Part shown: positions 34,441 through 61,080 of the stretch, one piece after another | Layout: each line of letters opens with the position of its first letter | Numbering within the stretch: the stretch's first letter is position 1 | DNA from: Lentinus brumalis | Lineage: Eukaryota; Basidiomycota; Agaricomycetes; Polyporales; Polyporaceae | Length of the DNA stretch: 64,000 nt | NCBI GenBank assembly: GCA_001792895.1 | Contig: MARA01000047.1 | Coordinates: 186,001-250,000, forward strand | Direction of reading: 5' to 3' | Program-made: the position numbers and the translations under genes | The notes under the pieces: generated by a model | The model's input: the letters and a program-made list of their open reading frames with translations, nothing else | Told to the model about the DNA's origin: nothing | The model's database searches: none

Positions 34441-35179
34441 CGCCCGTCGTTGTCAGTGGGCCGCCACCGGTGGCGCCGAGCTGTGAATCTTGTCAGCCAT
34501 AGTCTGCAATACGTTCAGAAGGAGCGCTACCGGTGTTGAGTTATGAAACGCGTGGCGAGATTTGAAAGCTGGCGGGTGATCTCGCGGTGTGTGGCCGTGT
34601 TCAATGCGGTCTCGTCAGTCCACGACTCTTCGGCGGCTGTCGCAGCAATACTGGCTTGGGAAGTTTGAGATTTGGGAGAGGGAGAGGCAGGTGCTGAATA
34701 AAGAATGAGGAGCATGTATATGAGGGACTGAAAGACTCACTCTTACACGGCTCGCAGCGGGAGGACCAGCGCTTGCAATAGCTCCGACATGGTCATGATC
34801 CCTAAGAGGCGTACATGATGCTGCCGGCGAATGCTTGGCTGGAGAGCTCACCAACGCATCGTCGTCCGTCTTTCTCCCTGGAGGACTACCGGCCGCCACA
34901 CCGCTGCAGCCTGCCACGCCGAGGATCCAGACCGCTGCGCATACGTAGGCATACGTCACAGCAGTGTATATTCAGTGAGGAGACTGAGGTCAACATTAAA
35001 GACGTGATTATGATAGTGACGCTTTAACTGACCTGACCTGAGCCCGTACTAGGCAGCCAAATCCGTAGTCGCGAAGGGGTGGAAGAGGTTGGGGAAGAGG
35101 TGGCATAGCCGTATTCGGAAGTCAACGCGCTTGAGCCACTGGCAACATCAGTAAACCGCCAAATTTATTAGTCGACTTA
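34441..35179. other. Former promoter side of the relic; no intact gene
   Basis: The minus strand at 34,790-34,745 encodes M-S-E-L-L-Q-A-L-V and then a TAA. The same stretch recurs upstream of the fuller copy (about 37,650-37,603), where the ATG is AAG. The match covers roughly 75 bp and probably reflects duplication of the 5' region. Otherwise nothing is recognised. Confidence 0.45.
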
Positions 35180-37704: not shown

Positions 37705-37722
37705 CTCTCCACGGAGAGCTCC
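37705..37722 (+). repeat. Left inverted end motif of the older KDZ element
   Basis: An 18-bp string, CTCTCCACGGAGAGCTCC, matches the reverse complement of 61,063-61,080 exactly. It is itself partly palindromic, which weakens the case a little. Confidence 0.5.
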
Positions 37723-37935: not shown

Positions 37936-38280
37936 ATGAATCTCCTCGAGCTCAACCACCTCCTCACCACGCACCCGAGGTCAACAAGCTTCTTCCTACT
38001 TGGAACGACCTTGTCCAATTCTGCGACCTCGTTTGGTGGCTGAAGGCTGAAATATTGGCCTCACGACCGCCGGGAGACGCCACTGCGCCACCCGCCCTGC
38101 CTGCACACGTTGGAGGATTCCTCGGCACTGTGTTCTCCCTCCCCATCGGAGATATCAAGCGGTTATGGGTCGTTCTTCGAGAGCTTGCCTGGGAGGACGA
38201 GAAGTCCGGTACTCTGCAGCAGCGCCGCGCGCACGCGCTGCTGCTGTTCTTCCTCAAGTATGGCAAGGAGTACGACCTAT
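37936..38280 (+). pseudogene. CxC5/CxC6-type KDZ transposase, 5' part, cut off by a transposon insertion
   Basis: This is the N-terminal exon of a KDZ transposase whose remainder begins at 54,889. From the ATG at 37,936 (M-N-L-L-E-L-N-H-L-L) the reading shifts at the CCC run 37,974-37,976: one extra base there joins it to the conserved frame N-K-L-L-P-T-W-N-D-L-V-Q-F ... I-K-R-L-W-V-V-L-R-E-L-A-W ... F-L-K-Y-G-K-E-Y-D-L. This matches the N-terminal domain that precedes CxC5 in fungal KDZ proteins. The exon stops in the middle of a codon at 38,280, precisely at the 8-bp target CGACCTAT of the inserted element. The continuing open frame to 38,405 is transposon sequence. Confidence 0.8.
38273..38280 (+). 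repeat. Target site duplication, left copy (CGACCTAT)
   Basis: Identical 8 bp occur immediately right of the insert at 54,828-54,835. In the uninterrupted gene this octamer ends the first exon, and the intron donor GTACGT follows it directly. Confidence 0.9.
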
Positions 38281-38312
38281 CACATACTGACAGTAGAATG
38301 TTACTGGGTTGT

Positions 38313-38350
38313 TGTCCCACCGGTGGACATTATACGCAGGTATTGCAGAG
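38313..38350 (+). repeat. Left terminal inverted repeat block of the younger element
   Basis: It contains TGTCCCACCGGTGGACATT (38,313-38,331) and TTGCAGAGG (38,342-38,350), which recur inverted at the right end with nearly equal distances to the target duplication. Confidence 0.65.
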
Positions 38351-39390
38351 GGCCCGGTACCAGCCGGTGAGCACGGAATACAGGCCGCGTCTTGTCGGCC
38401 GGTAGGTCGGACTACGGGTGTCCGGCGAACGGTGTTCTGACGCACTGTGGGGTGTGGTAAGAGGCTGTTGGCGGTCTGTACCTGGCGTGTAGCCTGTTCG
38501 AGGGTCCGGTTAATCGCGAATTGACATGCGGGCACGGCGATCGTGCTCCTATGGTTGACGCGGGTTCAGAGTTTCGTTCTAGAACCAGAACCATGCAGGG
38601 CAGGTGCTTATGATCCCGTAGAGGACCGGTGGGTGCGGTGTCTCGACGGACCCAGCGGGAAACAGTTCTCAATCTTAGATATCTGCCAGTGCATCATCTC
38701 GGCGAACACCTCACCGGCAACTGTGACCTGCGAGTACGCTGGGAAGGTATATATTGGGACCTAGGTCATGAATGGTTGATGAAAGCAGGGATGATCCCCG
38801 CTCTGCCTGCACAGCTACGGCATATGTTTGTCAACCTGTCAGTAATTGTCCAGGGGTCTGCTAGAGCTTCTGAGCGACACACAATTCAGATATTTGGGCA
38901 TATCAGAGCCCAGAACGCAGGAACCCCTTTGCTAAAATTTGGGAGGATCGACAATATGGTTGAGATGCATCTTCCACTCAGTCTAGCAACCATGCGAGGC
39001 TGTTCCCGTGTCTTCCGCGACTTTTATTGAAGACACACATTAGCCGAGTTTACTCACCGGCCGGTAGCGACACCGGGGCTACTGACCATGCAGCAATGCG
39101 CTGCGGCTCAATATGTCCCATTCTTTGGAGACTACATGCGTCAGGCTCTTGCACGCAGGGAATGCGGGTTCCGAGCATGTCTGATATTTACCGCTGCAGT
39201 CCGTAATATCCACTTACCTTCACACCGGCCGTCAGTGGTGATACATACGTACGCATACCGGCCGGTCGCGCAAAATAGAACATGTGGCTCATCGGCCGGT
39301 AGCATGAACTATATCGCGGCACATAGCATTCAGTTCATGAAGGGAATGAATCGGCCACATCATTGTTTATAGCGGCAGATATGAACTAAC
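38351..39390. other. Left subterminal region with CGGCCGGT motifs
   Basis: No gene is supportable in this 1 kb. CGGCCGGT or ACCGGCCGGT occurs at 38,395, 39,056, 39,257 and 39,293. At 39,250-39,264 the 15-mer TACGCATACCGGCCG is the exact reverse complement of the core of the 33-bp repeats at the right end. These look like subterminal protein-binding sites. Confidence 0.6.
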
Positions 39391-40550
39391 CTAGTCCTCC
39401 TCAGCGGACGAATCTCCTGCGCTCCTTACCGGCGAACCGGGTCCGTGCCCCAGCGGCATAGTGCGGCCGACCAGGGGCGGAGCCAAGTCGTCGGACGATG
39501 AACTGTAGCTGGTGGACGGCGAGGACACGGCATCGGCGTAATTCGTCGCTCCTGAGTGAATAACGAGCGGCGCATGTTGGTCCACGTCCGAAGCGTCTGC
39601 CGAGCCTGATAACATGGATGAGGAGGACGATTCGGCGTAGTGGGCGGTGCGACGGTGCGGGCCGGGGGATGAGAGGGGGGAGCGCTCTTCGGGGAATGTA
39701 GCTGCAGCGGATAGTGCCACGAGTGGAGCCAGATACGGCGAGGATTGCGTCGAATCGTCTGTGAAGCGTGCAAGGTCGTCCTCATCAGATGATAGAGTAT
39801 ACAGAGAATTGCCGACCAACGGCGGTTGGATATCGACCTCGTCAGAGCTATCGCCGCTCTCCGACGCATCATATCCTCCTGGCGACGCCGGACGCGCTTG
39901 GCTATGAAGCAGCGGTGCATCATATGGCTCCTGTTCGGAGCCAGATACGCTATCCAGCGACGACTCTGGCCGGCTATAAACTGCTTCATCATCGGAAGAC
40001 ATGGCAAACGGCTCCTCATAGGCTTCCCGGTCTGCTGCGTCCGTGCTGACTAAGGGTGCGGCCCATTTGGCGGACGGAGAGGATGATGCAACAGAGGCGC
40101 GTTCCGCATCACCCAGATTGCGGAGGTAGGATGGTGCGTCTGTCACAGGAGGTGTCGCCAGCGATAGTCCCTGAGGAACATTGTAAGCCATGCATCCATA
40201 CAGAGAGCACGATGAGCATTGTACTAGTACCTGGATGGGCCGGGACAGTATGCGCAATGCGGCCGTCTCGCCGCGCGGGGCAGACTCCTGGCTGGACGGC
40301 ATAGAGTAGGTTCCACTTCGTTGAGGGGAGATGCCGTGCTGTCCCACAAGGAAGCTGACTTGCGAAACCTCGGGAGATGGAGAGCGAATGCGGACACGGC
40401 GGATTGGACGGCTAGATTCCCCGGCTGCAAAGCGCGTGTCAGCAATCGTACAATACGCCATGGCGTAATACAATTACCAAACCAGACAGGATCGGATGAT
40501 GCCCGAGGCCGTTTGGGCAGATACTCGAAGTGACCTACAATTGAAGACAT
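39391..40550 (-). CDS. Acidic Ser/Asp-rich protein with repeated PLV motifs (transposon cargo)
   Basis: Three exons (40,550-40,478, 40,424-40,231, 40,170-39,391) give about 348 residues. The first intron (53 nt, GTAATT...TTTGCAG) is needed for frame; the second (60 nt, GTACTA...CCTCAG) keeps frame whether or not it is removed. The protein starts M-S-S-I-V-G-H-F-E-Y-L. After a short basic part (R-R-V-R-I-R-S-P-S-P) it becomes very rich in Ser and Asp, with six spaced motifs of the type A/P-P-L-V/L (A-P-L-V, D-A-P-L-L, Q-P-P-L-V, A-P-L-V, A-P-L-V, A-P-P-L-V). No enzyme domain, signal peptide or membrane segment is visible. A disordered nuclear or scaffolding factor is a guess. It is transcribed away from the Cys-cluster gene and has no frame breaks. 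Confidence 0.65.
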
Positions 40551-40849
40551 GTTAGCACCTGCAGTGCGCCGGTGTAATAACGGCTCACATCTACCCCTGC
40601 GCATTGTGGAAGGAATCGCGCGGAAGGGGCTCTTGTGGTCTTGTGCTCAAGCATGCATTGCTGGTGGGCAGATCTCCGAGATATCGGGCTCATCGGAGCA
40701 TGCTGCGCTGCAGCGTGGCAAACGGCCGCCGCCGCGCGCGTGCCTCCGGCGAGGCATGCACCGTTCCCCGCACCCTGCGTCCTCTTCTCCGAGCTTCTTC
40801 TCCCGCCTCTCTGTTGCTGTACTCGCACTCTGTGTCTATCTATCATTCT
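40551..40849. promoter_or_regulatory. Divergent promoter region between the acidic protein and Cys-cluster genes
   Basis: A 299-bp interval lies between two divergent start codons (40,550 minus, 40,850 plus) and presumably drives both genes. No clear TATA box was found. Confidence 0.5.
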
Positions 40850-43800
40850 ATGGCTACCCACACATCCTCCAAGACTAAGCCGGTCCCTCTCCCGGAGCCT
40901 ACGGAGACGCAAATCGCGGAGGCCAGTCTCTACGCTTCGGAGCTTCACTATGGCTACTACGAACGACCGAAGATTGGCAATCCGCTGCGCGGACGATGGG
41001 AGAAGTACTACAAGAAGAAGATAGTCAAACTTTGTATGTTGCTTGCCCAAGCTCAATTCACTGATCTTCCCCGATCGCTCTCGCCTGCGCATACCAGTCC
41101 AACGCTGTCGTGCTTGGAGTCCGCCCGGACATTGACTTCGAGGCTATACACCCTGACGGCGCAAAGTATCCCGCAGTAGATCCTCCTCCGACCGTTCCCC
41201 GCCTTGCCTACAAACCGACCAGACGGGGGCAAGTTCGCCTCGACTTCAATCCAGCTCCGTACAGCGGCTGGTGGAAGAGGTCGAAATCATGTGAGTAGAA
41301 GCATCCCCGTACGTCTTTCGTCCGGTCGCATGATGCAGTATCGTCTAGCAGCCGCGTCGAGAGCTACGCCAGCCACTGACTCCACGGATGCCGCCCCGTC
41401 AGGCAAGACTCCTGCTGCTACGCTACACAAAGCCCCGGCGAAGCTCATAGGACGCTCCCAGGAAGCCGGGAAGGGAGCGTCCTCTGCGGAGAGAACTCGT
41501 AAGGGGAAGGCCCGAGAGACGGCCACTGTGTCCTCTGCAAGCCCTGGCCCTTCCACGGCGGACGTCTCGCAAGAGGAGGGCGAGCATACCGGAGGTGCGT
41601 CGCGGGGCCGCGGCTCAGGGCGGGTTACGCGAGCATCCTCGAGAGCACCCTCCATGCCGCCGCCCGAGGAGAAGTCCCGCGAGCCCTCTGCAACGTCCGC
41701 AAGCAAGCGGCGAAAGACGAGCGATGCCCATGACGGCCCAATCAAGAAAGCGAAGCGTTATGACATCCCGGAGGAGCCCGACTTCGCCGAGGAATCTATC
41801 CGGCCTGGCTGGCTGCTTCACGTACGTCTCCCGCTGCGATAATCCGTATCGGGGCTGACATCGCCGCCGCAGCCTGATCCCTGTGAGAGGTGCCAGAGTT
41901 CGAGCGCAAACCCGGAGAGCAAGTGCTACTACAGCCCATTCGCCGGGGCCGTATGTCACTGGTGCAGCAAGAACAAGGCGAAGTGCACGCACTCCATCCC
42001 CCCTCTTGGAAAGAACAAACTCCTCGCGGGTTACTTGACGTGGAGGTACGTGAAGCAAACCGAGGACCCCAAGACTTACGGTGATCCTGTCGATCCTGCC
42101 ACCGTCGTCAAGCTTTTCAAGGAGGCCGGCGTACCCTCGTGGTTCAAGGAGCAGTTCGATGCAGCCACTGACTATGACCGCGGTGACCCCGACTACACTC
42201 CAGATCTCCAGCCGTCTTTGGCCAGTCGTCGCCGGAGCAAGAAGTCGCAGAGAGGCGCATCGCCAGCGCAGGCTCCGCCACCTCCTACCCAACGCACACG
42301 CGGAAAGGGACGGTCGATGTCAGTGGCTTCAAGCGATGCTGGTACCGCCATGGATGTCGATGCTGCGTCGGATGTAGCACCTTCGGGTTCAGATGGCTCG
42401 GGACGCCATGGTCAGATGGAGGTTGCGAGGGACGTGCCCAGCGACACTGATACACCGAGGCTGGGGGATGCCTTGCAGAGCAGCGGTGGACTTGAAGCTA
42501 TGTACCGGATGCGCTCGACTCCCATCACTCCCGGGGGAAACGCAGGAGCAGCGCGGGCCAATGCCACACCACGTCTGGCTGCCAGCGAGCAGCGGATGAT
42601 CCCACCAGAGATTGCAGGTGCGTTCCCCATAGCACGAAATGTGTTCCGCGGTGCTAACGGCTCGCACGAACACGGTAGATTCCTGGCGTTCGATAACATC
42701 ACGGCTGTCACCTCCCAGCACGCGCGCGCATGCGCCGGACGATGTCGGACAGCCGACGACCCTCACGGAGTACATCGCGCTCCGTCACCCCATCCCCGCC
42801 GCCGCTCCAAGAGCTCCCGGAGACATCGGAATACCTCCACAGGCCCATCGCCCCCGGACGCCGCCAGGATCCATATTCCGGGTCGGGCGTGAGACTCGGG
42901 AGTTTGTTGATCGCTACTCCCGCGATGCATGGCATCTGGAGGCCGTAACAATGCACATGAACCTCGTCCACAACATGCTGATAGAGCTGCGCACACGGCT
43001 CGGTGCTCGTCGCGATGCACTGGGAACGCGGGTCTCTCTGGGAGATTCACCTACGGACGCGGTGGAGGAGCTCGTCGCCCATGCTGAGGGCATCATAGAC
43101 GACTCTGGACTCATTGGCGATGCACTCGGCGGCCTACTCGACGTTCTCACGGACGTCTTTCACTCGCTGCGGCTGGTCATTCCCGCCTCAGGCTACGGCG
43201 CGCCCCTGGTCGAGCTCTTGGATACACTGCACCAGCTTCGTGCATTGTACTCGGAGAGCTGGGAGAAGTACGATGCGGTGCATCGCTCACTCGATCCGCT
43301 CTGGGATGAGGTCCGGCGAGTGGCTGCCATCGGCCAGACACTCTCCGCACGATGTGACGCCCTACCGGATGATTGTACTGCTGCGGTGGAGCCTTTACTG
43401 CGTGAGTACAACGCCGCCATCGGGCTGCAATTGGCGGAGCTGCGCGAGGGGATAGCGCAGCCATTAGGGCGCATCATTGCGGTGCTCGAGGGGCAGGGAG
43501 ACATAACGGAGGATCGAGCGATCGCCATTCGCTCGGCGATCCAGGACGTGGTGCACGCGTTCGCCGGCTCTCGGATGGATATCGACACTGCTTCTCCGCC
43601 CGCTAGCCCTGTCCCACCGCCGATCCAGGCTGTCGCAGTCGTTGGCACTGCGCTGTCCGATTCCGTCGTAGGTCCAACCATGCCGTCAGTCGATGACTGC
43701 CTTGCGGCTCTGGCGTCGCTCTCCATCCGCGTCGATGCTCTTGAGAAGGATGCGTTGGACAGCAAACCCACCGCTGCGACAAGTACGCCCTCCTCCGACA

Positions 43801-44057
43801 TCAACTTGCAGGTGTACCTTGACAAGATAGGACTTACTGCTGACGTTCTGGAAAGCCTGATCGAAATGGCGAACGCGGAGGACGAGGACGAGGACGAGGA
43901 GGCGGACGATGCCGAGAATGAGGACGCGCAGGACGCGGAGGAGGATGCAGCTGTTGAGCAGCAGTCGGAGGAGGAGGGAGAAATATCGCCGGTTCTTTCG
44001 GGCAGAGCCCCAGGTCGCACAAGGAGCGGTCAGTCAGGACCCCGTGGTATTCGGTAG
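40850..44057 (+). CDS. Large Cys-cluster nuclear protein with acidic tail (transposon cargo)
   Basis: Coding pieces lie at 40,850-41,033, 41,098-41,290, 41,339-41,821, 41,873-42,674 and 42,719-44,057. In order they encode a short N-terminus (M-A-T-H-T-S-S-K), V-V-L-G-V-R-P-D-I-D-F, a basic Ser/Ala-rich linker, then R-P-G-W-L-L-H and a cysteine cluster: C-E-R-C, K-C, C-H-W-C and K-C about 35 residues long, suggestive of a fungal Zn-binding DNA-contact motif. A second disordered linker leads to a long helical region and a very acidic E/D tail ending at 44,057. One base seems missing in the C5 run 42,851-42,855; adding it joins the last two frames. The first two splice sites look canonical but do not keep phase, so the 5' model is uncertain. 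Role unknown; possibly chromatin or target recognition for the element. Confidence 0.65.
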
Positions 44058-44118
44058 CGGACATCAGGTTTGACTTGCGGGATAATACATTTCTACTGAA
44101 CTATGAAATGGAATACAA

Positions 44119-47100
44119 CTAGCCGCGTCGCTTGCCCTTAGTGTGCCTTGCCTTCTTCTTGGCTGGACTCTGTGGGGATCGCTGCACCTGCGGTACACGG
44201 CTGCGGCTGCGCGTGCGGGGCACCGGTGCATTCGCCGCAGCCTCGGCGAGCTGCCTACGGGTGCGCGGTTCAACCTGCGTCGTGGGTAGTGCCGATACGG
44301 CCGTACTGCGAGCGCGCTTTCGCTGACCAGGGCCAGTGCTGCTGCTGCTCGCTGGTGCATTCACAGCAGAGGTACTTGGCATAGGCAAGTCTCGAGCGGC
44401 GGTCACAACGGCTGAACCGCTACGCAGTGTCTCCTCAATGAACTGCGCGTCCTCTTCATCCTCGTCAGCATCATCGTCCGCCGCCGGCGTGTGTTCACGA
44501 GTCTGCATAGTACTTGCAGTCATAGGTGCTCCATTGGCCGACCCTGAGGTAGACGTCAGCTCGGTGAGTGTGCTCTCGGAGAACGGCCCATGTGCATAGC
44601 TCAGAGGGGTGGCAGGACCCGCATCCACGTCCATAGGTGATTCGGCGCCGTCGTGGGATGCGTCGGATGGTGCAGCGGTAGCCTGAGGGGATGGGGAGCG
44701 TGGCGGGGTGGTGCCCGGAGGCGTGGTGGGCGAGCTCCATCCGGAGTAGGTGGTAGCAGCGTCCGCAACACCTGTTACAAGGAGGGGAGCAATGCCTGCG
44801 GAGAGTGATGAGTCCGAGGAGTCCCCGCTCTCGCTGCTATCGGAGCCATGCACGGAGCGGGCATCCTGCTGTCCGGTGGTGTGCATAGGACTAGCCAGGA
44901 TGATCGGACCACCGGTGAACTGTCTGATGTCGGACGGGGTACTGCTGTGATCACAGCCTGCGAGGCGAGGGGAGGATGGTGGCACGCAGCTGGTACCTTG
45001 AGCCTGCTGTGCGGGCAGGAAGGGCATACCCTCCTGCGGCTCCGCTGCGTCCTGAATTGCCGCGACAGCTCGGCGAGGCATTGGCTTGTGAAACGCACGG
45101 CTACAGGCATCCAGGAGAGAATCCGACATGGACATGAGTAGGTTACTGCCTGCGAAGTAAGGCGGATACTCGTCGGGCATGTTCTCATCATCCTCGATCT
45201 CCGTGACAAGGATGATATCTCGGAGCAGCAGTCCCATTGCTAGGCAGTAACCCTGAATCGCTCCGGCGGATGCACCGAGCCGTACACCGTTGCTGAGATA
45301 CTCCTGTAGTGCCGAGAGGTACTTGCGGTCCTGATGTACATCGATTGGTGTGAACGCCGTCCGATGTGTCCACGAAGCCCACGAAGCGTAGGGCCCAGTT
45401 GCAGGCACTGTGGTACGAATCTACAAGCAGGGTAAGCATGTGTACTATGTTGAAATCATCGCCGAGGGACATACCTTCTCCGATGCACGTTCAAGCATGG
45501 ATAGATACGCCGCATGACTCGTCACCTGGCTCAGAAACAGCCACCGCTCATCGGGCGTCGTGGAAAACGCTGCGGGAGCTCGGAGGACACCAGTAAGGTT
45601 GAGCCGGGGAGACGGCTGTCTGCGCACCCGTGGTGGTGTTCGCTTCAACTTCGGTTTCTTCGATGGTCCAGCAGCCGCAGGAAGCCCATCAAAGAAGTCG
45701 TCGCTACCCTCCACAAGCTCGTCCTCTTCCTGAAAACCAAGCTCCTCCGGGTCATCGTCGCCTGAATCTGACTTGGAGAACGCAGCGCACGTGAGATCAA
45801 CGTACTCTTCACGGCCATCGGTATACTGCGCCTCGTCCGACTCCTCACCAGCCGCAACACGCTTGCCCTTGCCCTTCCTTCTCTTCCCCAATTTCTGCGA
45901 CTTGCTGGCAGCCTTCTCTGCTCTCTCCGCATCGTTCGCCGCCTTCTTCTCCGCACGCTCCCGAGCCTTACGCTCCTTCTCCGCTGCCTTGCGAGCCTTT
46001 GGCGACGTTGCCGACGTGGACGGCACCGACGGCTTGGAAGTGGCGGACCGCTTGGAGATGGCTGATGGCTTTGAAGACGCCTCAGGGAGGGGGCTCCGAG
46101 CAGGGCTGGTTGTGGTGGCTTTGCGGGCATTCGGAGGATATACTGGACGTTTCTTACGCGCGGGAGGCGGAGGGGAGGTGGGGCGAGCATCATATGTAGC
46201 CTTATGAAACTTCCAGTTGGGGTTTTTGCCGGTACAGTACTGGCGAAAGCGGAAGTAACGAGGTGCGCTGCCGTCAGAAGGGTGCTCCATAGCTATGACA
46301 TGGCGGAAGAAAGTAATGAGGTCTTCCTCCGCGATATGACTAGGGTCGGTGAAGCGGAAGCCAACGGGAAGCATGCCGTCTTCGAAGAACTTGTCTTGGT
46401 GAGCACGCAGAGCGGCCCATGGGACGAACGCAACCTGAAAGCCTCTAGCGCAACCTGTTTATAAATTCGACGCACGTTCAATCGGAGTCGTAGGGATACA
46501 AAGGCGTGTACGTGTACTGACTGTAGTGATTACGCATATACTGGCGGAACACGTCAATCCGCTGCAGATACGAGAACGCCCGCCCGCTGTCATCTCCAAC
46601 AAGAATTGGCGTGCCATCGTCATACTCCTCGAATGCAAACTCCACGGGGACACGGCGCGTTGTCTCGGGAGCCGGCTGCTCCGCGGAATCGGCGTCGGGA
46701 AGGATCCAAGGCTGGAAGAACTTCCTGAAAGTCCTCCGTAGCTCGCGGTCCCAGTCATTGCTGTCGGTGTATTCGGGCCGTCGAGCCTCTCCCTTTTCAG
46801 CGCGCTCGTTGATCAGCTCGGACGTATCATAGCTATTGCAACATGGGTCAGTGGGATATATGTAAGGAGAGTGGAGGGTGCACGTACCGAATGCCCTGGG
46901 GATCGTCTTCGCCGTTCGGGCATAGACCGTATATGATGATTGGCATGCGGCACTGCTCCCAGAACAGCGTGGTTGTGGTGCGCATCCATGAGATTGCGCG
47001 TCGATGGGCAATACTATCTGAGAATGAGATTCAACGAAACAGAGTGAAGGGAGACTGGGGACATACGATGGGGGGAGAGCGACATCGGGGCCCTCGCGGT

Positions 47101-47600
47101 TCCACTGCAGTGCCTTCTCCTCATATGCTTCACGTTCCTCGTCGGTCAGCGAGCGCCATAGCTCACGGCGACAGGCGTTCCATGTCGGGAGGGAGTGCTC
47201 AGCAGAGGTAGGACGCTCTGCGACGGCAGCCTTGATCTCATCGCGGTGCAGGACTTCGTACACGCTTTCCCCCTTGTACGCCCGGTTGACGCGCAGGGGC
47301 AGACGAGCCTTCTTGGCCTGGGACCGATTATTGAACCAGTTGCGGACCTTCTGAGCACACACAATACGTCAACATGTAGTGTGCAAGATGAGGAAGCTCG
47401 TGACGCACCCCGCATAGTGATTCCAAGCACAGCTTGTACTCAGGGCTCTCCGACTCTTGGATCCCGCGCTCGGAGAGAAGATGACGAGCGCACACCTCGA
47501 CGAAAGAGTCCTTCTCCTTGTTGGGCGTGGTACGGTACGCAGCTTGACGAGGTTCGAGGTACGACTCCTCGTTCTCCGGAAGCCGAGTGGGACGAACCAT
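44119..47600 (-). CDS. Homeodomain-like nuclear protein, about 1,064 residues (transposon cargo)
   Basis: Six exons fit perfectly: 47,600-47,409, 47,350-47,067, 47,013-46,888, 46,832-46,522, 46,454-45,475 and 45,420-44,119, with introns of 53-67 nt, all in phase. Residues about 25-80 resemble a homeodomain, ending in the recognition-helix pattern K-V-R-N-W-F-N-N-R-S-Q-A-K-K; the W-F-x-N-x-R core is the hallmark. A helical segment with R-R-E-L-W-R-S-L-T-D-E-E-R follows. The middle contains a long Lys/Glu/Ala-rich coiled-coil-like stretch and acidic patches; the C-terminus is Ser/Pro-rich and ends in a basic K-K-K-A-R-H-T-K-G-K-R-R, probably a nuclear signal. It likely binds DNA, perhaps the element's own repeats. 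It is divergent from the TET gene and convergent with the Cys-cluster gene (61 bp apart). No breaks: the best-preserved gene of the element. Confidence 0.8.
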
Positions 47601-47865
47601 AGCGTGAAGAGTGAGAGGGTGTCACAAGGCAGATAGCGGGAGGGGAAAACCTGAGAGGTAGCAAGTCTCCGACGCATACTTATGGGCGATCGGCCGGTGA
47701 ACCACAACAGGCAAGTGCCGCCCGGGCCGGCTTTCCGTGCACAATTTCCATGCTGTGCTCTTATCGCATTTGGCCTCCCATGCAGCACGACCTTCGCACT
47801 TGTGTCTTTCAACACCCCCTCACCACTGGTCACATTTGAGTCTTGACTTTTCTCTACCTCACTCC
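47601..47865. promoter_or_regulatory. Bidirectional promoter shared by the homeodomain-like and TET/JBP genes
   Basis: The interval of 265 bp separates divergent start codons at 47,600 (-) and 47,866 (+). It contains one CGGCCGGT at 47,691-47,698, the core of the motif repeated at the element's ends, so a protein that binds the ends might also regulate these genes. This is inference from motif sharing. Confidence 0.5.
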
Positions 47866-49195
47866 ATGACGACTCCCATTGAAGACTCAATATTACCGAC
47901 GACCAGTGCTCAGACGGTCGTCTACATGGAGGCCTTGTACAACCACACCCTTGCTATCGCGCAACAGTCGGGCATCTTCCGGGCCCGCTATACTGTCCCT
48001 GAGCCCCGCCGACCATGTCTGATGACCTTAGACGTGACTGCCAAGAGGCCGTGAAGGTCCTCGTGCGTGCAGTTCAGACTAAGTGTGCGTACCCTCGTGC
48101 TCTGCGCAAGATTCGTGCTCACAACAATATCAGACGCAGTGACCTGGGATGCCCATCGATACGCGGATCATGTGGGAAGAGCTGCAGTGCTAAATATCCC
48201 CGAAGAAGACAAACGGCTGCTGCGATACCCACCGCTTGTTCCAGTTGGGGAGATCACCGCGGGCGACCGTTATTACGGTCTCATCGACCATCCAGCGATA
48301 ATCACTGACTGCCACGGTAACATCATGCTCTGGTCCCTGCCCCACATTCTTTCCGAGGCCAGGCAGGTCCGTATCTCAAAATCTGAGTCAGATGGAGCGT
48401 ATCAATTACTAACGGGGTATTCAGCAAACCATCCTCGAGGCTACCCGGCATGTCGAGGGCCGTCTGGTGACCCAGGAGGATCCGGAGAATGGAACGCCAG
48501 GCCAGAAGTGGCGCAGCTCCGACCGGTTCTTTACAGATGGCCACCAGTGGTCATCTGGGATCACGTACTTCTCCGCCGGCTGGTTTGCGCAAGGGCAGAA
48601 GGTGCGTGGTAGTGCACGGTGATCGCACTGAGTGCTTGGAGCTGACTGATATGTCTGATAGGGAGACAATTGCCGGCCACGCTCCACAGACTTCGTCCGT
48701 CTTCCAGAGGGCAAAGCCTGGATGGCCGCCATGGAGGAGACCGGCGGACTGCTCGATGGTATCCTGGCTATTGCACACCCTGCGCAATACAAGGCAGGTG
48801 TGGCCGTCCGAGAACGCCTCGCCGAACGTCTCCCAGACCTTCGAGAACACATCAAGCTATGGCCCACGGTGTTCAACGCGGCGCAAGTCTCGGTGAACCG
48901 CATGAGTATCCACCATCGGGACGCCACCGGACGCCCCGGCTGGCTTGACATGCTCCTCACCCTCGGGAGCTACGGTGAGCATGGTGTTATGGTCTTCCGC
49001 AACATCGGGGCTACCGTACCATTCGATGCCGGCTCAGTTGTTCTTGCGAACTCGCGTGTGGTCACACATGCAGTCCCGCAGGTTCCGGCGGATCGTATCG
49101 CCTATGCGCTTTTTATGGTGGACACCGTGCATGAGTGGGTTCGAGTAGAAGACCCCGGATGGTCCAAAGAGGCTGACCGCCGAAGCCTCAAATAG
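47866..49195 (+). CDS. TET/JBP-type 2-oxoglutarate/Fe(II) dioxygenase (5-methylcytosine oxidase family)
   Basis: Enzymes of this family oxidise 5-methylcytosine (or thymine in JBP) in DNA using Fe(II) and 2-oxoglutarate; this one would act in the nucleus. Exons 47,866-48,084, 48,134-48,366, 48,425-48,601 and 48,662-49,195 (introns 49, 58 and 60 nt) give about 387 residues. The C-terminal double-st​randed beta-helix shows the iron site H-R-D in S-I-H-H-R-D-A-T-G, the segment G-W-L-D-M-L-L-T-L-G, the distal His in V-V-T-H-A-V-P and the 2-oxoglutarate-binding Arg in D-R-I-A-Y-A-L-F-M. One base is missing in the C4 run 48,004-48,007; with it the N-terminus joins in frame and every splice keeps phase. 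Without it the protein ends before the catalytic domain. TET/JBP genes riding on KDZ transposons are known in basidiomycetes. Activity is not shown by sequence alone. Confidence 0.85.
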
Positions 49196-49312
49196 ATCGG
49201 CAGAGTATCATATGTATATAGTTTCCGCCGCTCCCTATCATGTACCCCGGGCCCTCCAGATACTGTTGAATCCTACCCCGACCGTCTCGCCTACCCTGTC
49301 TATATCATCACG
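49196..49312. promoter_or_regulatory. Short spacer and promoter of the KDZ transposase
   Basis: 117 bp between the TET/JBP stop and the transposase ATG, with a TATA-like TATATAG around 49,214-49,220 about 95 nt upstream of the start. Confidence 0.4.
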
Positions 49313-52300
49313 ATGGGACACCGCTCTCGGAAAGACTTCATCGGCACACGAGTGGAGGTCCGCGCCGCCGTCAAGAAAAGCCGGAAAGGTGTTCGGGTTC
49401 GGGCAAAGCTCGTTCGGGAGAACATCGCCCAGGCCGCCACTGTGGCCACGGCCTCCTCGTCCGCCACAACTGCTGCATCCCAGCCTCCGCTACCTCCATC
49501 CAAGCCCAATACCCCGCTCGGCGATTGCGACTCGGCTGACCAGTATAACGACTACACTGCGGCCAAAGATGCGGAAGCCCGGAGAACAAAGGTAAATTCA
49601 TCCACAGCATTTGTACTGTTCCGCCAAGATTCATGCGCCATACCGGTAGTCTCAGCACGAGTACCAGGCCGAATTCCTAAACCTGCGAGACGAATACCTC
49701 TCCGCCCTCCTAGCTGCGGAATCCCTTCCCACAGACGGCACAGCGTCATGCGGGCATGCACCGGCGTGGCGCTGTCTCTCCTGCCATGGCCGGCCAACGT
49801 TCTGTGCGCCGTGCTGCTTTGATGCGCACAAGGCGCAACCGCTCCATCGCGTCGAGTACTGGCAAGGGGCATTCTTCCAGCCCGGCTGGCTGCGGCAGGT
49901 AGGGGTGCATGTGCACGGCGGCCACGGCGGGCTTCCCTGTCCAAGCCTTGTCCGGTACATGGCCCCGGTCTCCATGTACACGAATAGTGTTTCAGCAACT
50001 CTCGAGAACCCTGTCGAGGAGTCGGAGGAGCTAGAGACACCATATCTTGAAGAGGAGGTTCTTTCGGACTGTGATGATGAAGACGCCGGCCTGTTTGGCT
50101 CATACTCGGGCGATGGCGATGGTGGCGACGATGGCGAGATCCGAATTGCAGACCTTCCCCGGATGGAAGATGCAGTGCCGCAGGTCCCCGGCGCATTTGA
50201 TGCTATGCCCAGCTTCCCTGCATTCGCCGCCACTCGCATGATCGTCGTGGTGGATACGGACGGTGTACACGAACTCCCCTTCACATTCTGCTCTTGTTCC
50301 GAAGCCCCACGCGAGGATCTGCAGCTTCTCTCGCTGGGATTATACCCTGCCACCAAGGCCCGGACGCGCACTGTATTCACCTTCCGACTACTGGATTCGT
50401 TCTCGCTTGCAAACCGGGAATGCAACACGTCAGCTCGTAACTTCTACAACAGCATCAGGCGGACTACCAACAGTGCGTTTCCGCATGTTGTCCCGGTATG
50501 TGTTCACCGCTATCATTCCATCAGTCGTCATCCGCTGACCGCTCGAGCTGCAGGATCGGTATCGGGAGCTCCTGCGCGTGTCGCGTCAGTGGCGAAACTT
50601 GAAAATGCGCAAGTGGGCCGGCTTCGGCCATCGCAATACGCCGGTCGGACCGGGCGAGCTTGCAGTCAAGTGCCCCGCCTGTCCGCAACCTGGAATCAAC
50701 CTCCCGGACGGTTGGGAGACGGACCCACAGCGGTATGTTACAAATTGCTTCTGTCTGCAGCCGGTTACTCATGCATTACCCAGGTGGAAGTACACGCGCG
50801 GTGTCGTCCTTGATGGCAACTTCTCCGCACAACACCGGCCTATGAAACGGCCGGAGAAGGACGTTCGCCTCGCTGACGGTCAAGCGTTTACGGTCGCCGA
50901 TGGCCCGTACAAGCAACACTTGAAGACGGGGAAGGAATACCGAGAGGTACGCCATGCGTGCGCCTCGCCCGGATGCGCCGCTGACCAACACGCATGAGTA
51001 GCCGACAACCTGTAATGAGCACCGCGCTGTGCTCAATGCTGCGGTAAGCCGGGGGAAATACGAAGCCACGGGGATTGGTGCGGCGGCGTGTTCCCGACAT
51101 GGGTTCTTTCAGCCGCATGCATGCGTCGACTTTCAACTCGGCGAACGGTATGTCTATCTGTCCACCAACGCCCGCCCAGAAGAAACGCTGATATATTGTA
51201 TAGGCAGCTTAACATGGACTACATCCTGAATTGGATCTTAGCCTTCCTTAACGGTCTCACCACCGTCCTCCTCCTCTACGACATCATGTGCCAGTACTAC
51301 ACCCGGCTTCACGAACGATTCCAGAAAAGCCCCGGGCTTCAGATGCCCCGGGCCTCAAGTTCCTCCGCGGCATCGGACAATTCCATGTCCACGGCCACCT
51401 TACCCGGTGCTTCCCCGGTTCTCACTGAACTTCCTCCGAGGCGTCGGGGTTCAAGACGGCGAAATCATCGAGACGCTGTGGAACAAGATCAATGGCATTG
51501 CGGGAAGCACGCGGGGAATGGGTTCTGCACATCGGCATGAGCTCATTGATGATCGAATGAACGACTCAAATTGGATGAAGCTCACACGGATTGGTGAGTA
51601 TTGAAATGTTCATTAGCGGTCCGCAACATGATGCTGACGGCGTATAAATACATAGTTCCCCTGCTGATGCGCCGCTGGAAGCGCGTACTCGCCCAACACG
51701 ACCGCGCAATTTCCGCACTGGACGAACTGTCCGGCAATGCTACTGACGCCGAACTGGCAGCTTGGAGGGCTGCCGCCAACGCGGCGCACGAGGCGAGGGA
51801 CAACGACGTGGCCGCAATGGACTTGTATGACGTCCACACAAAGCCCGGTAAGTATCCTGCAAATTTCACAGGCTCCTCGCTTATGCGCACAAGCAGCACC
51901 TACGCAGAAGGAGGTTCAAGAGGCCCTCTTGCGTCAGGAGCTTCAGGAACACGACATCAACGCAGGCGGAGCAAGTAGCTGGATTAGTACTGGACTTCGC
52001 CTTGAAGAGCGCAAGTGAGTCTCCTGCGTTTCTCCTTCGCTCGTCGTGCACTCATGCAAACTGCACCCACCAGACTGTCAGTAGCGTATGCGGCGCGACA
52101 GCTAGATGCGAATGCGACCGACACTGCACGAATCGAACTAGCGGACTCACGGCTCAAGCTCGCAAAGGCCATCCGGGTATTCCATGCTGCCGGCCGGACC
52201 CACATTGGGTCGGGATCCATGTCCGAAGATACCGACGATCCAATGCTCGTCGGCGAAGAATGGGATGGGCTCGCCCAACAGGCGGCGGCGGCGGCGGGGA

Positions 52301-53118
52301 GGAACACCGACGTTCTTCAGCCGGAGCACCAGGCCTTAGCTCTCCCATCGACCTTGGGGCTGCCCTACCTAAAGTCAGTGAAGCTCATGCACCTCGTCGA
52401 CAAGGAACTGCAGTTGCGGCAGGGACAAATGAACGACAGCCTCCAAGGAGTTCGTACCGGAATCGGATACAAATCCATGGTCTTCCGGAAGAAGGTTCGC
52501 GAGGCGACGTCAACACGGGAGAAGCTGCGCAGCTTCGACGAGGTCCACATCATAGACGACACCATCCGCAAGCACGTTCGTGTGTACATGCAAGCACGGC
52601 AGGCATGCCTGCGTCTGTACGACACTAACACGCCGGACGGCGCCGCGGCGCAGACTGCATTCCTCGGTACATACCGTATCATCACTAAGGACGACCTCAC
52701 CGCCAGCACGACCGTACTAGAGGCATTTACGCCGGGCCTCCGCAACAGGCACGATGCGTGGTTCTGGGGAGCTGGCAACGGCGATGGGCAGGATGCAGAG
52801 TGGTTGCGTGAATGTGAGTACATGCCGAAACGGCGCGGGCAAAGGACTGACCATCTACTATCAGTCCGGCGATCACTCTGGCTACGGGCACTCGAGCGCA
52901 AGGAGCGTTGGGTGGAAGAGCGGTCGCTCGTCCCGTTTGAGATGGAGTGTACGGTGCGGTTCTTTCAGCATAGGGCGCAGGAGTGGGAGGGCTGGGGTGC
53001 AGCTGGTGTTACGCCGGGACATGCGGCGTATGCACGCCGCCAGGCGGACATGTGGCGGCGATTGGCCCAGCATGCGCAGACATCGTTCGCCCAGGTCCTG
53101 GCTACATCGGCCGCTTAG
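49313..53118 (+). CDS. CxC2-type KDZ transposase (two frame breaks)
   Basis: This should cut and rejoin the element's ends. Nine exons: 49,313-49,591, 49,656-50,495, 50,554-50,732, 50,784-50,946, 51,002-51,147, 51,204-51,593, 51,656-51,847, 51,894-52,014 and 52,074-53,118, about 1,118 residues. The CxC2 cluster (W-R-C-L-S-C-H-G-R-P ... F-C-A-P-C-C ... H-R-V-E-Y-W) is in exon 2. The RNase H-like core follows: D in V-V-L-D-G-N-F, D in L-L-Y-D-I-M-C-Q-Y, Glu in V-Q-D-G-E-I-I-E-T-L-W, plus F-H-V-H-G-H and M-N-D-S-N-W. A C-terminal helical part holds R-T-G-I-G-Y-K-S. Within exon 6 one base is missing at each of two C4 runs (51,346-51,349 and 51,413-51,416); as written, translation ends at 51,540. 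With both bases all splice phases agree and no other break exists. Confidence 0.9.
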
Positions 53119-53756
53119 GTGAATTCGAAGTGACGTATTGATCCGATGTTCGGCGAATATACTACAGATTGCGACTCATCGCCGGTATGCCGGGGAAGCA
53201 TGGCATACATCGACGACGAGGATCCTGGGGCCATGCTAAGTATCGCCGGGCGCACGCAGGTACACGAGGTAATCTACTGTACTCCGAAAGCCGCCAGTGA
53301 GCATCCGCGCAGGGAATCTGTCCGTGAACACCGTACTTCGCAAGGCCGATATATATCGGGCAATCACTGAATGCGGGAATCCAATACTTGCTATAGGTGA
53401 GTTTACCGGAGTACGACAGTGTGCTGCCAGTCGTTTGTAAGGGCCCAATAGCACCCCGGCACTGAGCGCCGCTCAATAGGCCCTGAGACGATATATGGCG
53501 TATGGAAAGACGGGTTGTATCTACCCCACCTTCGGATTTTCTAGAGGCGGATATGGGGAACAGGTTGGTCGACGAATGAATGTTGATCGGCCGGCGAACT
53601 CAATAGTATGTCACTGTATACGTAGCTTTCTGCAGGGTGCAGCATCTCGCTGAGAGCGATGTCAAGGAATGCTCGGCCGACCCTTGGAACGGCCGGTATG
53701 CCTGTGCAGGGATGTCAGCAAGCAGGCAGCAGGCTTGACGACGTACGTGAGTGAAC
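53119..53756. other. Right subterminal region before the repeat array
   Basis: No gene is supportable. Scattered CGGCCGG-type motifs occur (about 53,590 and 53,690), spaced more widely than in the following array. Confidence 0.55.
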
Positions 53757-54410
53757 AGCCGGTGTGCTTAGCCTGGGGAATCCCTTAACGGCTGGTATGC
53801 GGAGCTATAAATGTTGTTGAGCCGCCGATATGTATCGCCAGTGACGTGAGCGTACGGCCGGTGTGCTGAGCCTACTAAATGTTCTAACGGCCGGTGTGCT
53901 GAGCCTACGAAATGTTCGAACGGCCGGTATGCGTAGGAGAGGATGCCATCGAGCGGCCGGTGTGCGTAGCCATGGATGGTCGGAAGCGGCCGGTATGCGT
54001 AGCCAGAGATTGCAGCGGGCGGCCGGTATGCGTAGGAGAGGATGCCATCGAGCGGCCGGTGTGCGTAGCCATGGATGGTCGGAAGCGGCCGGTATGCGTA
54101 GCCAGAGATTGCAGCGGGCGGCCGGTATGCGTAGGAGAGGATGCCATCGAGCGGCCGGTGTGCGTAGCCATGGATGGTCGGAAGCGGCCGGTATGCGTAG
54201 CCAGAGATTGCAGCGGGCGGCCGGTATGCGTAGGAGAGGATGCCATCGAGCGGCCGGTGTGCGTAGCCATGGATGGTTGGAAGCGGCCGGTATGCGTAGC
54301 CAGAGATTGCAGAGAGCGGCCGGTAAGCGTAGCCAGAAAGTGGAGAGAGTGGCCGATAAGCGTAGCTAGAAATTGGAGCGAGCGGCCGGTAAGCGTTGCT
54401 GGCAATTAAG
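53757..54410 (+). repeat. 33-bp tandem repeat array, about 20 monomers, with a 99-bp higher-order unit
   Basis: Each monomer begins with CGGCCGGTATGCGTAG or a close variant, at exact 33-bp steps (53,855, 53,888, 53,921, 53,954 and so on). From 53,921 four copies of a three-monomer, 99-bp unit are almost identical. Because 33 is a multiple of three, open frames of 165-224 residues run along it on both strands (for example repeats of Y-A-Y-R-P-L); these are by-products, not genes. The position next to the element's right end and the matching inverted 15-mer at the left end suggest subterminal binding sites. Confidence 0.85.
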
Positions 54411-54758
54411 AAGCAGTGGTCGGGGAGGTGTGTAATTGACACCCTCTGTAGGTCCTACTGTCAGATCCCATGCAGCGCAGCTTTACATGAATCAGGGCAG
54501 GCGCAATCCACCGGTATAGCCCCATGTCCTACCGGCCCGCTACAGCAATGCCATACATTCAGGCAGAGACTCCAGAGCACGCACCGTGGCCTTTGACGAA
54601 GATATTACGGGTACCCAGAGTGCGCATCCCATGTGGCTACTACAATCATACTACAGCACTGTTATCAGTGTACCTCGGCATGCAAGACACCTGTGAATAC
54701 CGACCGACCGGCCGGCGTGCCGTCCACTGTACCACAACCCTACCGGCCGGGCCCGGTT
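54411..54758. other. Right terminal segment of the younger element
   Basis: About 350 bp between the repeat array and the terminal repeat block. It holds further CGGCCGG motifs (around 54,708 and 54,745) and no gene. Confidence 0.55.
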
Positions 54759-54797
54759 CCTCTGCAACCTACCGGGTGAATGGCCTCCGGTGGAACA
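54759..54797 (-). repeat. Right terminal inverted repeat block of the younger element
   Basis: Read on the minus strand it gives TGTTCCACCGGAGGCCATT (54,797-54,779) and TTGCAGAGG (54,767-54,759), matching the left block with three differences in the first part and none in the second. Confidence 0.65.
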
Positions 54798-54827
54798 GCA
54801 ATATTGGGGATCTTTATGACATAGGCT

Positions 54828-54835
54828 CGACCTAT
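54828..54835 (+). repeat. Target site duplication, right copy (CGACCTAT)
   Basis: Identical to 38,273-38,280. It is followed at once by GTACGT, the intron donor of the interrupted transposase gene. Confidence 0.9.
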
Positions 54836-56766
54836 GTACGTATCACTGCTGCGAAGTATATCCCAAAGGACTAACCGCACCCTTACAGGCTTCTATAACT
54901 TGCGCCCTCCGACACGCATATGCTCGGACCCCAGATGCACGAAGAAACGCTCTCGTCTTGTGGACGATAGCTATGGTGTGAAGGCGTCCGTGCTCGGGGA
55001 GGCACGGTCACACGACGTGATGATATTCACGCGCGACTTAGGCCCGGTCCCAGCGAAGGCAACGTCGCTGTACTGCCGTGGTACGTGCATGACACGCCGC
55101 TCATCGTTGTCGTCGCTGATCTATTTGCGCAGGTTGCCACACGCGGTACTATCACAACTACTTCGTGCACGACCAAGCGTCTACTCGGACGTACTACGCA
55201 GGCACTGTCCCCCATTCATACAAATCGCGCAACACTTCTATATAGCCAGCGACGTATGCGAAGATATCGCAAACTCGATGGTCCTGTCATGGTGCGTCGT
55301 ATGCACTGCTTAGTGGTCTGTACTCACATATTGATTCAGGACATCTGCGACCAACGCAGCGGAGATCTACAACCTCGCCGAACGTCCAGATGAACTCGCC
55401 GCTGAACTCCAGCTGGACTCGAAGCTGTCGAAGCAGCTGTCTACGGAGCAAGCCTGGGATGCTTTCTTCACGTACTCGCTCCTCCTCCATCACGAGGAGT
55501 ATGGTACGGCCCTGGCACTCGACCACAACGCGCCGACACACGCAGAGCGCCTTCGCCCAGCGCTGCAAGCTCGGAACATCTTGATGGTTGGGCCGGGCCA
55601 GGAGGAGTGGTCGCATGCCTGTGACCTATGTTGCTGGGTCCATGAGAATGACCACGGCGAGACAGGTGCGTCGTATTATATTGCTCATATCCGCGACTAC
55701 ACTGACACACAAATAGTTGCTGTACGATCTGTCGTGACTGACGGCGTGACGGTCGGACATCCATGCTGCGGCTGCCATGATTGCAAGGAGCCGATTATCC
55801 GCAAGAAGGGCGCGCGGTACTGTGCAAAGCATGCTCACCTGGAGCTCAAGTGCTCAGTCGTCGAGTGCAGCGAGCTCGCTGAGGTGGGATTCAAGACATG
55901 CTCCGCCCCGTCGCACCGGTCCGTCGAGACCCACTATCAACTGAAAGGCAAGGCTATGTTCCAGCTGCGGGAACGATGGAACGAGTGAACGAATCGCGTG
56001 GTCATATTGGCACTCACCCGCAGCCGTTCACTACAAGCACCGTTCCAGCAGCAGCCGGCACAGATGCGGAGGAGTTCGGGATGTTCGACGACGGTGAGAT
56101 CGAGTGTGAGGAGAAGTCCTCTGACGGCAACCGCAAGGTGAAGGCCTTACTCGGGCGTCGACATACGCACAATGAAGAGCTGTGCGTATGTTCATGCGGT
56201 GTTGTGCTTGGCCGCGCGACCTTCTTTGGCTCAGAGGCCGTCAACGGTGTCCTAGTAAGTCGTAATTCTCTTGGTGCAATAGCGTACTTACTTGCTCCCT
56301 CCCTCAGCAATTCTGGCGTGTTCTCTTCCCAACCAAGAGATCCCAGCCCCAGGTCCACTGGCACGACCAGAATTGCCGACTTCGTCTCATGCTCAACAAC
56401 AAGGACCAGGCGACACGTGATTTCTTCGCGCACTGTGCGCTGCCAGTGGACGTGTTCCACTTCAAGTGCAAGCACAAGGCAACCGACGTCGAGTGCAACC
56501 TACACTGTAACCCATACAACTGGCCGGAGTTGCACACCCCAGACGGCAAGTGGCGCTTCAATTCGTCGGCTGCCGAGCAAACAAACGCATGGTTCTGCAA
56601 GTACCACGCCATCGTACGTGAGATGGACGTAGATAGGTACAATTTTTTTCTTGACGAGATGATCAAACGGCGGAACCGTTTGACAGTCCAGAAACTCCGC
56701 GAGAAGGGGCATCACCCTTATCGCATTCCACGTGACTTCCTTCTCCAGAACAACGACGATGCGTAG
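54836..56766 (+). pseudogene. CxC5/CxC6-type KDZ transposase, 3' part, separated from its first exon
   Basis: The segment opens with the intron (54,836-54,888) that followed the first exon before insertion. Exons 54,889-55,080, 55,133-55,291, 55,340-55,665, 55,717-56,254 and 56,308-56,766 follow. Content: the CxC5 part (R-P-P-T-R-I-C-S-D-P-R-C, L-Y-C-R-G-C-H-T-R-Y-Y-H-N-Y), F-I-Q-I-A-Q-H-F-Y-I, the CxC6 part (P-C-C-G-C-H-D-C-K-E-P, Y-C-A-K-H, T-C-S-A-P-S-H), then G-K-A-M-F-Q-L and the catalytic-side region with V-H-W-H-D-Q-N-C and V-D-V-F-H-F-K-C-K-H. Two single bases are missing: in the C5 run 55,209-55,213 and near the GGG at 55,969-55,971. With these and the one in exon 1, all phases close to a protein of about 673 residues. 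Cut off from its start, it cannot make full-length protein. Confidence 0.85.
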
Positions 56767-61062: not shown

Positions 61063-61080
61063 GGAGCTCTCCGTGGAGAG
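61063..61080 (-). repeat. Right inverted end motif of the older KDZ element
   Basis: The reverse complement of this 18-mer equals 37,705-37,722 exactly. Confidence 0.5.

Follow-up and report, generated by a model that had tools for sequence, protein, structure and literature searches.

The window analysed here, a 64,000-nt stretch of the Lentinus brumalis genome (contig MARA01000047.1; C79:186001-250000 of an assembly of 53.4 Mb in 136 contigs), harbors a gene for a protein with CxC5 and CxC6 domains whose first exon is separated from the remaining five by a segment of 16.5 kb. The segment contains four genes of its own, namely two accessory genes (A and B), a gene for a TET/JBP oxygenase, and a gene for a transposase with CxC2 and KDZ domains, and it is bordered on both sides by the same octamer (Table 1). 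The arrangement is very probably the product of a single event, in which a CxC2-type KDZ transposon that carried a TET gene inserted via an 8-bp staggered cut into the end of exon 1 of the CxC5/CxC6 gene.

Table 1. Features of the split CxC5/CxC6 (outer) gene and of the insert, in window coordinates
Feature	Position	Strand	Remarks
Outer CxC5/CxC6 gene, exon 1	37936..38280	+	Frame break near 37.98 kb; supported by the C109 paralog
Target-site duplication, left copy (CGACCTAT)	38273..38280	+	End of outer exon 1 (8 nt); set against the uninterrupted C109 paralog
Inserted TET+ CxC2-KDZ transposon (probable), 16,547 bp	38281..54827	+	Duplication, inverted-repeat rank, domains
Left subterminal imperfect inverted repeat	38309..38422	+	Begins 28 nt inside the left end
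Accessory gene A	41654..44122	+	714 amino acids in a home-made model
Accessory gene B	44891..47600	-	705 amino acids in a home-made model; weak GTF2I/HMG-like hints
TET/JBP oxygenase gene	48134..49195	+	Pfam Tet_JBP, 3.4e-10; 5' exons uncertain; core open stretch 48662-49192
CxC2-KDZ transposase gene, multi-exon	49316..53118	+	Pfam CxC2, KDZ
Tandem array with CGGCCGGTA	53854..54396	+	Units of ~33 bp (99-bp higher order); candidate transposase-binding subterminal repeats
Right subterminal imperfect inverted repeat	54686..54801	-	Finishes 26 nt inside the right end
Target-site duplication, right copy	54828..54835	+	Intron donor GTACGT directly after
Outer gene, exon 2 (CxC5)	54889..55080	+	
Outer gene, exon 3 (CxC5)	55133..55291	+	One frame break
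Outer gene, exon 4	55340..55665	+	
Outer gene, exon 5 (CxC6)	55717..56254	+	One frame break
Outer gene, exon 6 and stop	56308..56766	+	

The octamer CGACCTAT was found in a scan of the window at the two tabulated sites and once more on the plus strand, at 15185, in line with chance, and it is absent from the minus strand of the 64-kb window. The direct match is exactly 8 nt long, as the adjoining bases differ on both sides. Since about one copy per strand is expected in 64 kb, such a repeat carries little weight by itself, and it is its position that counts. In particular, all exact 8-mer pairs with one member at approx. 36.9-40.5 kb and the other at approx. 53.1-57.0 kb (403 pairs) were scored for an inverted repeat lying just inside them. 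The CGACCTAT pair ranked first with a score of 41; the pairs ranked second to fifth (scores 30, 18, 18, and 17) are located inside the arms of this repeat or overlap them, and the best pair outside both arms reached 16. By comparison, 500 pairs of 300-nt stretches drawn at random from window positions 1-36,000 reached no more than 24. The two arms agree in 82 of 118 aligned columns, and the termini of the insert read 5'-CA..CT-3'.

Moreover, a search with the right flank led to a paralog of the outer gene on contig C109, in which exons 1 and 2 are contiguous and the GTACGT donor corresponds in position and phase to that of the window gene with the insert left out. As judged from this alignment, C109 represents the empty paralogous site of the insertion. 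The nested insertion is genuine, and it follows from the nesting that the inner insertion is younger than the outer gene. The initial annotation had placed the octamer at both of these positions, with the donor directly after its right copy, and had set the ends at 38,281 and 54,827; it had described the insert as a TET-bearing CxC2-KDZ element that landed in the first exon of a CxC5/CxC6 gene and is the younger of the two. All of this agrees with the sequence, the pair ranking, the domains inside the insert, and the uninterrupted C109 exon 1. The search for an empty site that it proposed succeeded with regard to a paralogous site and failed with regard to an allelic one in this assembly.

When the flanks are joined, the outer gene has five introns of 48-53 nt, all of the GT..AG type, and encodes a protein 66% identical to the C109 product; the C109 paralog has six exons with five introns (48-55 nt) and, once its own insert is disregarded, an open product of 678 amino acids. 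In its present form, exon 1 runs into the insert and terminates at 38403. The splices downstream of the insertion, which had been described as in phase throughout, are indeed in phase at their junctions, but the exons are not all open: exons 1, 3, and 5 contain one frame break each, all single-base by hand comparison with C109, and the ATG at 37936 is followed by an in-frame stop after 35 codons. Two further single-base breaks, near 51.33 and 51.41 kb, disrupt the KDZ core of the inner transposase, a region in which a diverged relative of the insert on contig C45 is open. The breaks are more likely to be assembly indels than signs of decay, because near-identical segments elsewhere in the assembly differ by 18 gap openings as opposed to 5 substitutions (nine non-independent comparisons); the intactness of the genes is not claimed. 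The C109 paralog is itself split (C109:69784-74658) by a hAT-like element of approx. 4.86 kb, whose duplication of 8 bp reads TGCTACTA and whose terminal inverted repeats read TAGGGACGGACACGA; within this element lies a piece with a putative hAT-type C-terminal motif.

Domains were recognized in the transposase and the TET/JBP oxygenase of the insert. The CxC2 domain of the transposase lies within 49650-50810 (4.3e-23), and the KDZ transposase domain, PF18758, at 51242-51601 (5.7e-13). Its closest relative is a Polyporus arcularius protein with 62% identity over 100% of the query, followed by proteins from Ganoderma, Daedaleopsis, and others. By its predicted domains, the inner element is a CxC2-type KDZ transposon. 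Among PDB structures, the TET protein matches 8jkk (5e-19) and 7vpn (CcTet; 5.7e-19), with the HxD motif and the distal H aligned; thus, a putative TET/JBP oxygenase with HxD..H lies inside the element and places it among TET+ transposons. The home-made gene model had fused the TET and transposase genes, which were split by hand. Five of the 90 listed database relatives (P0010, P0017, P0020, P0069, and P0096) combine Tet_JBP and CxC2 in one predicted protein, and the two may also form a single gene here.

Conserved sequence from approx. 40556 suggests that accessory gene A starts further upstream than modelled; the scoring of 7,993 candidates gave no homolog of protein A at E<=0.001. Six homologs of protein B were found, and five of them share the species and apparently the contig (equal size) with CxC2-domain matches of the transposase search: in P. 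arcularius (73,489), D. nitida (756,242), G. leucocontextum (296,058 and 68,457), and G. sinense (86,974), in the last case with locus tags two apart. The sixth is without a CxC2 partner in that search. Because five of the six pair with CxC2 matches, B appears to travel with this transposase lineage. The predicted structure of a protein B homolog is of low confidence (mean predicted local distance difference test score, pLDDT, 50.7), and its comparison with structures gave no match at E<=0.001, GTF2I domains being the best (E 0.22 and weaker).

The non-coding ends of the insert are distinguished by the motif CGGCCGGTA. The left end accounts for 3 of the 14 plus-strand sites in the window and the right end for the other 11, the latter mostly inside the tandem array. 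Its reverse complement has three sites, one per end and one outside at 34887, so that 16 of the 17 sites on both strands fall in the ends. The ratio of observed to expected CpG is 1.03-1.06 in the interior and ends of the element, similar to the 1.07 of the remainder of the window, and rises to 1.27 within the array; the element therefore shows no sign of CpG loss. Upon insertion, a staggered 8-bp cut in the last 8 nt of outer exon 1 would have duplicated CGACCTAT and split the outer gene into exon 1, which now reads into the insert, and exons 2-6. It is conceivable that the KDZ transposase recognizes the CGGCCGG-rich subterminal repeats, that the TET enzyme oxidizes 5-methylcytosine on the element and thereby lifts the silencing of its genes or ends, and that protein B acts as a DNA-binding partner.

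What kind of gene was hit is a separate question. The joined outer protein matches CxC5 (1.1e-33) and CxC6 (6.3e-22), and beyond these it has no Pfam match at E<=1, PF18758 included, and none to solved structures at E<=1. With a chance falling a little short of even, it is a transposase of a separate type and the sole gene of its own transposon. Such proteins are repeated in genomes: L. brumalis has 14 CxC6 loci, three with an identical score, and in Pleurotus 44 to nearly 60 CxC5/CxC6 regions have been reported, with open reading frames of 660 and 739 amino acids, the longer one inside a 6.8-kb insert that breaks poMSH4 (PMC7641404). In addition, the C-terminal part of the outer protein contains D, H, and E residues that are invariant among four aligned sequences. 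The absence of a Pfam transposase domain speaks against this possibility, and the Pleurotus authors tie the insert to a Copia retrotransposon rather than to a transposase of its own (PMC7641404). A perfect 18-nt inverted match surrounds the outer gene (37705-37722 and 61063-61080) and was considered as the end of an outer element. However, no direct repeat of at least 5 nt was found within 15 nt outside it, and a match of this kind turned up in 2 of 180 control block pairs; for these two reasons it is not called the end of the outer element. C109, which shares no flanks with the window gene, has nothing comparable.

The initial annotation had instead proposed that the joined flanks restore a KDZ transposase, so that one KDZ subfamily would have jumped into another. 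The CxC5/CxC6 part of this proposal stands; the KDZ part is rather unlikely. It draws on the Pfam descriptions of CxC5 and CxC6 as KDZ-transposase-associated and on the best profile alignment, which pairs HDQNC with YDIMCQ, FHFKCKH with FHVHGH, and AEQ-N-W with GE-ETLW (outer and KDZ, respectively) in the same order. However, in a profile comparison (hhalign) with 24 CxC2-KDZ transposases, the outer protein obtained a probability of 0.2-0.7%, which is not significant, and at least 3 of 60 column shuffles scored higher than its 18.3; its C-terminal part scored 19.8 against KDZ and 16.4 against an unrelated alignment (A1), both non-significant. The genomic neighborhoods also differ. Counting the KDZ matches listed, 71 of the 72 CxC2 loci have a KDZ match no more than 3 kb away, as opposed to none of the 14 CxC6 loci; within 10 kb, 2 of 14 CxC6 loci have one, and one of these is the nested insert described here. 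These loci derive from 75 CxC2 and 15 CxC6 matches after second parts of split matches were dropped, and the 93 KDZ positions used, about one per locus, come from the matches listed out of 159 found. Published Pleurotus data agree with this separation: in P. ostreatus, intact KDZ transposons are described as preceded by CxC2 and never by CxC5/CxC6 (PMC7641404). Because the outer gene shows no KDZ domain and none of the 14 CxC6 loci has a listed KDZ match within 3 kb, the notion of a KDZ element inside another is unsupported, and by the PF18758 domain the outer gene, a member of a repeated CxC5/CxC6 family, probably falls outside KDZ.

The gene content of the insert can be compared with that of its diverged relative on C45. 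This relative contains the same four genes in the same order and orientation, has a whole KDZ domain (4-217 of 217; 1.2e-41), and is 65-77% identical to the insert at the DNA level (72% over the longest match). It is flanked by 1,737-bp inverted repeats that are 99.8% identical (3972-5708 and 24025-25761 in the reverse complement of the joined stretch), and it measures 21.8 kb end to end; no duplication was found outside these repeats. Other internal DNA matches of the insert are short and lie in the KDZ core (67-74%) or in a repetitive stretch near 43.9 kb (77-85%). The conserved block on C45, together with the pairing of B homologs and CxC2 matches, makes it very unlikely that the insert is composed of two elements, a TET-KDZ element and a separate cargo element, even though gene B runs in the opposite direction and no homolog of gene A emerged from the protein search.

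The genome yields 29 Tet_JBP matches, 20 of them above the cut-off; at least 13 of these 20 are no more than 20 kb from the end of a contig, and several of the matches fall in near-identical segments. Gaps between such duplicated segments often adjoin runs of G or C, a sign of uncorrected long-read indels. Multi-copy TET families were tried as a source of ends, but the 3,946 nt that C1 and C81 share across the expected right end are 99.95% identical, and the two are for that reason apparent duplicated contig segments rather than independent insertions. On C83 (38102 and 55184), a TET match lies approx. 17 kb from the next CxC2 match, which is possibly another insertion, while the start of the same contig holds an equal-scoring TET/CxC2 pair only 2 kb apart.

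Several points weigh against the proposed insertion or against its exact limits. The left flank has no DNA match in the whole genome other than itself, so that the empty site is a paralog rather than an allele. In the genome, the left end of the insert likewise matches only itself, and the right end only itself and its own internal tandem repeat; because no second copy with the same ends was found, the limits are defined by one insertion. Neither similarity nor a duplication allowed the ends of the C45 relative to be matched with those of the insert. No inverted repeat is formed by the outermost 30 nt, which 768 of 1000 shuffles equal or surpass in score, and the duplication could be one of 7 bp extended by a chance match. 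Furthermore, both the outer and the inner genes contain single-base frame breaks. An assembly chimera, in which the octamer is a coincidental overlap joining two unrelated segments, would be in keeping with the many small indels and the uniqueness of both insert ends, but it is scarcely credible given that the joined gene resumes after 16.5 kb with matching phase and paralog structure, that the inverted repeat is nearly symmetric inside the octamers, and that a direct repeat exactly at the gene interruption is not expected of a chimera.

Insertion of a single TET+ CxC2-KDZ element, the reading we favor, can be set beside published systems. TET+ Kyakuja transposons have been reported in five orders of Agaricomycotina, including Polyporales (Kojima 2025, PMC12730594), and, like the insert, they combine a KDZ transposase and a TET/JBP gene in one element. 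Many bounded TET+ transposons appear in that paper, contrary to the remark in the initial annotation that bounded TET-bearing KDZ elements are rarely seen. Two Laccaria Kyakuja families have 7-bp duplications, 5'-CA..TG-3' termini, and no terminal inverted repeats (TIRs), in contrast to the 8-bp duplication, CA..CT termini, and subterminal inverted repeats of the insert. By these end features, the insert would not be grouped with them, a comparison that concerns two Laccaria families only; polypore families with 8-bp duplications may already be known. A word search of the available text of that paper found no counterpart of the accessory genes in KDZ elements; a third protein is mentioned there for TET+ Harbinger families.

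The Cryptococcus elements KDZ1, KDZ2, and KDZ3 have TIRs of 139-241 bp and duplications of 8 bp (KDZ1) or 4-8 bp (KDZ2 and KDZ3), and the insert resembles them in its 8-bp duplication and inverted repeats. They differ from it in that they contain CxC1 instead of CxC2, are approx. 9-11 kb long, and have repeats stated to be terminal; moreover, the text examined mentions no TET gene in them (PMC12810828). With its 8-bp direct repeat, the insert fits the target-site duplication of Zisupton, Dileera, and Cryptococcus KDZ1. With regard to the TIRs of Zisupton and Cryptococcus KDZ, its repeats are subterminal and imperfect (82/118), and its outermost 30 nt are no better than shuffles. The Pleurotus CxC5/CxC6 proteins are similar to that of the outer gene in length (660-739 amino acids), in being repeated in the genome, and in not adjoining KDZ; in the poMSH4 case the CxC5/CxC6 protein is part of the inserting fragment, whereas here the outer gene is the insertion target (PMC7641404). 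The kind of element is already known, and it is its ends and extra genes that are unusually clear here.

A more far-reaching scheme can be proposed, which we regard as speculative and improbable as a whole. Polypore TET+ CxC2 elements would constitute a four-gene KDZ lineage in which both accessory proteins are co-inherited. One of them, B, would bind DNA and bring TET to the CpG-rich subterminal CGGCCGG arrays, which would let the element remove methylation from the sites that its own transposase binds, and the outer CxC5/CxC6 gene would belong to a separate, undescribed transposase type misnamed after KDZ.

Together, a single insertion and a clear empty paralogous site fix the ends of a large TET-carrying element to approx. 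one base. The distinction between CxC5/CxC6 and KDZ, which has also been made in Pleurotus, corrects a label that annotations would otherwise take over from the Pfam names. The presence of two extra genes, at least one of which is kept with the transposase in other Polyporales, suggests that the TET module may comprise more than the TET and transposase genes. With its ends delimited, the element could serve as a defined substrate in studies of whether the TET enzymes of transposons act on the ends of the element itself.

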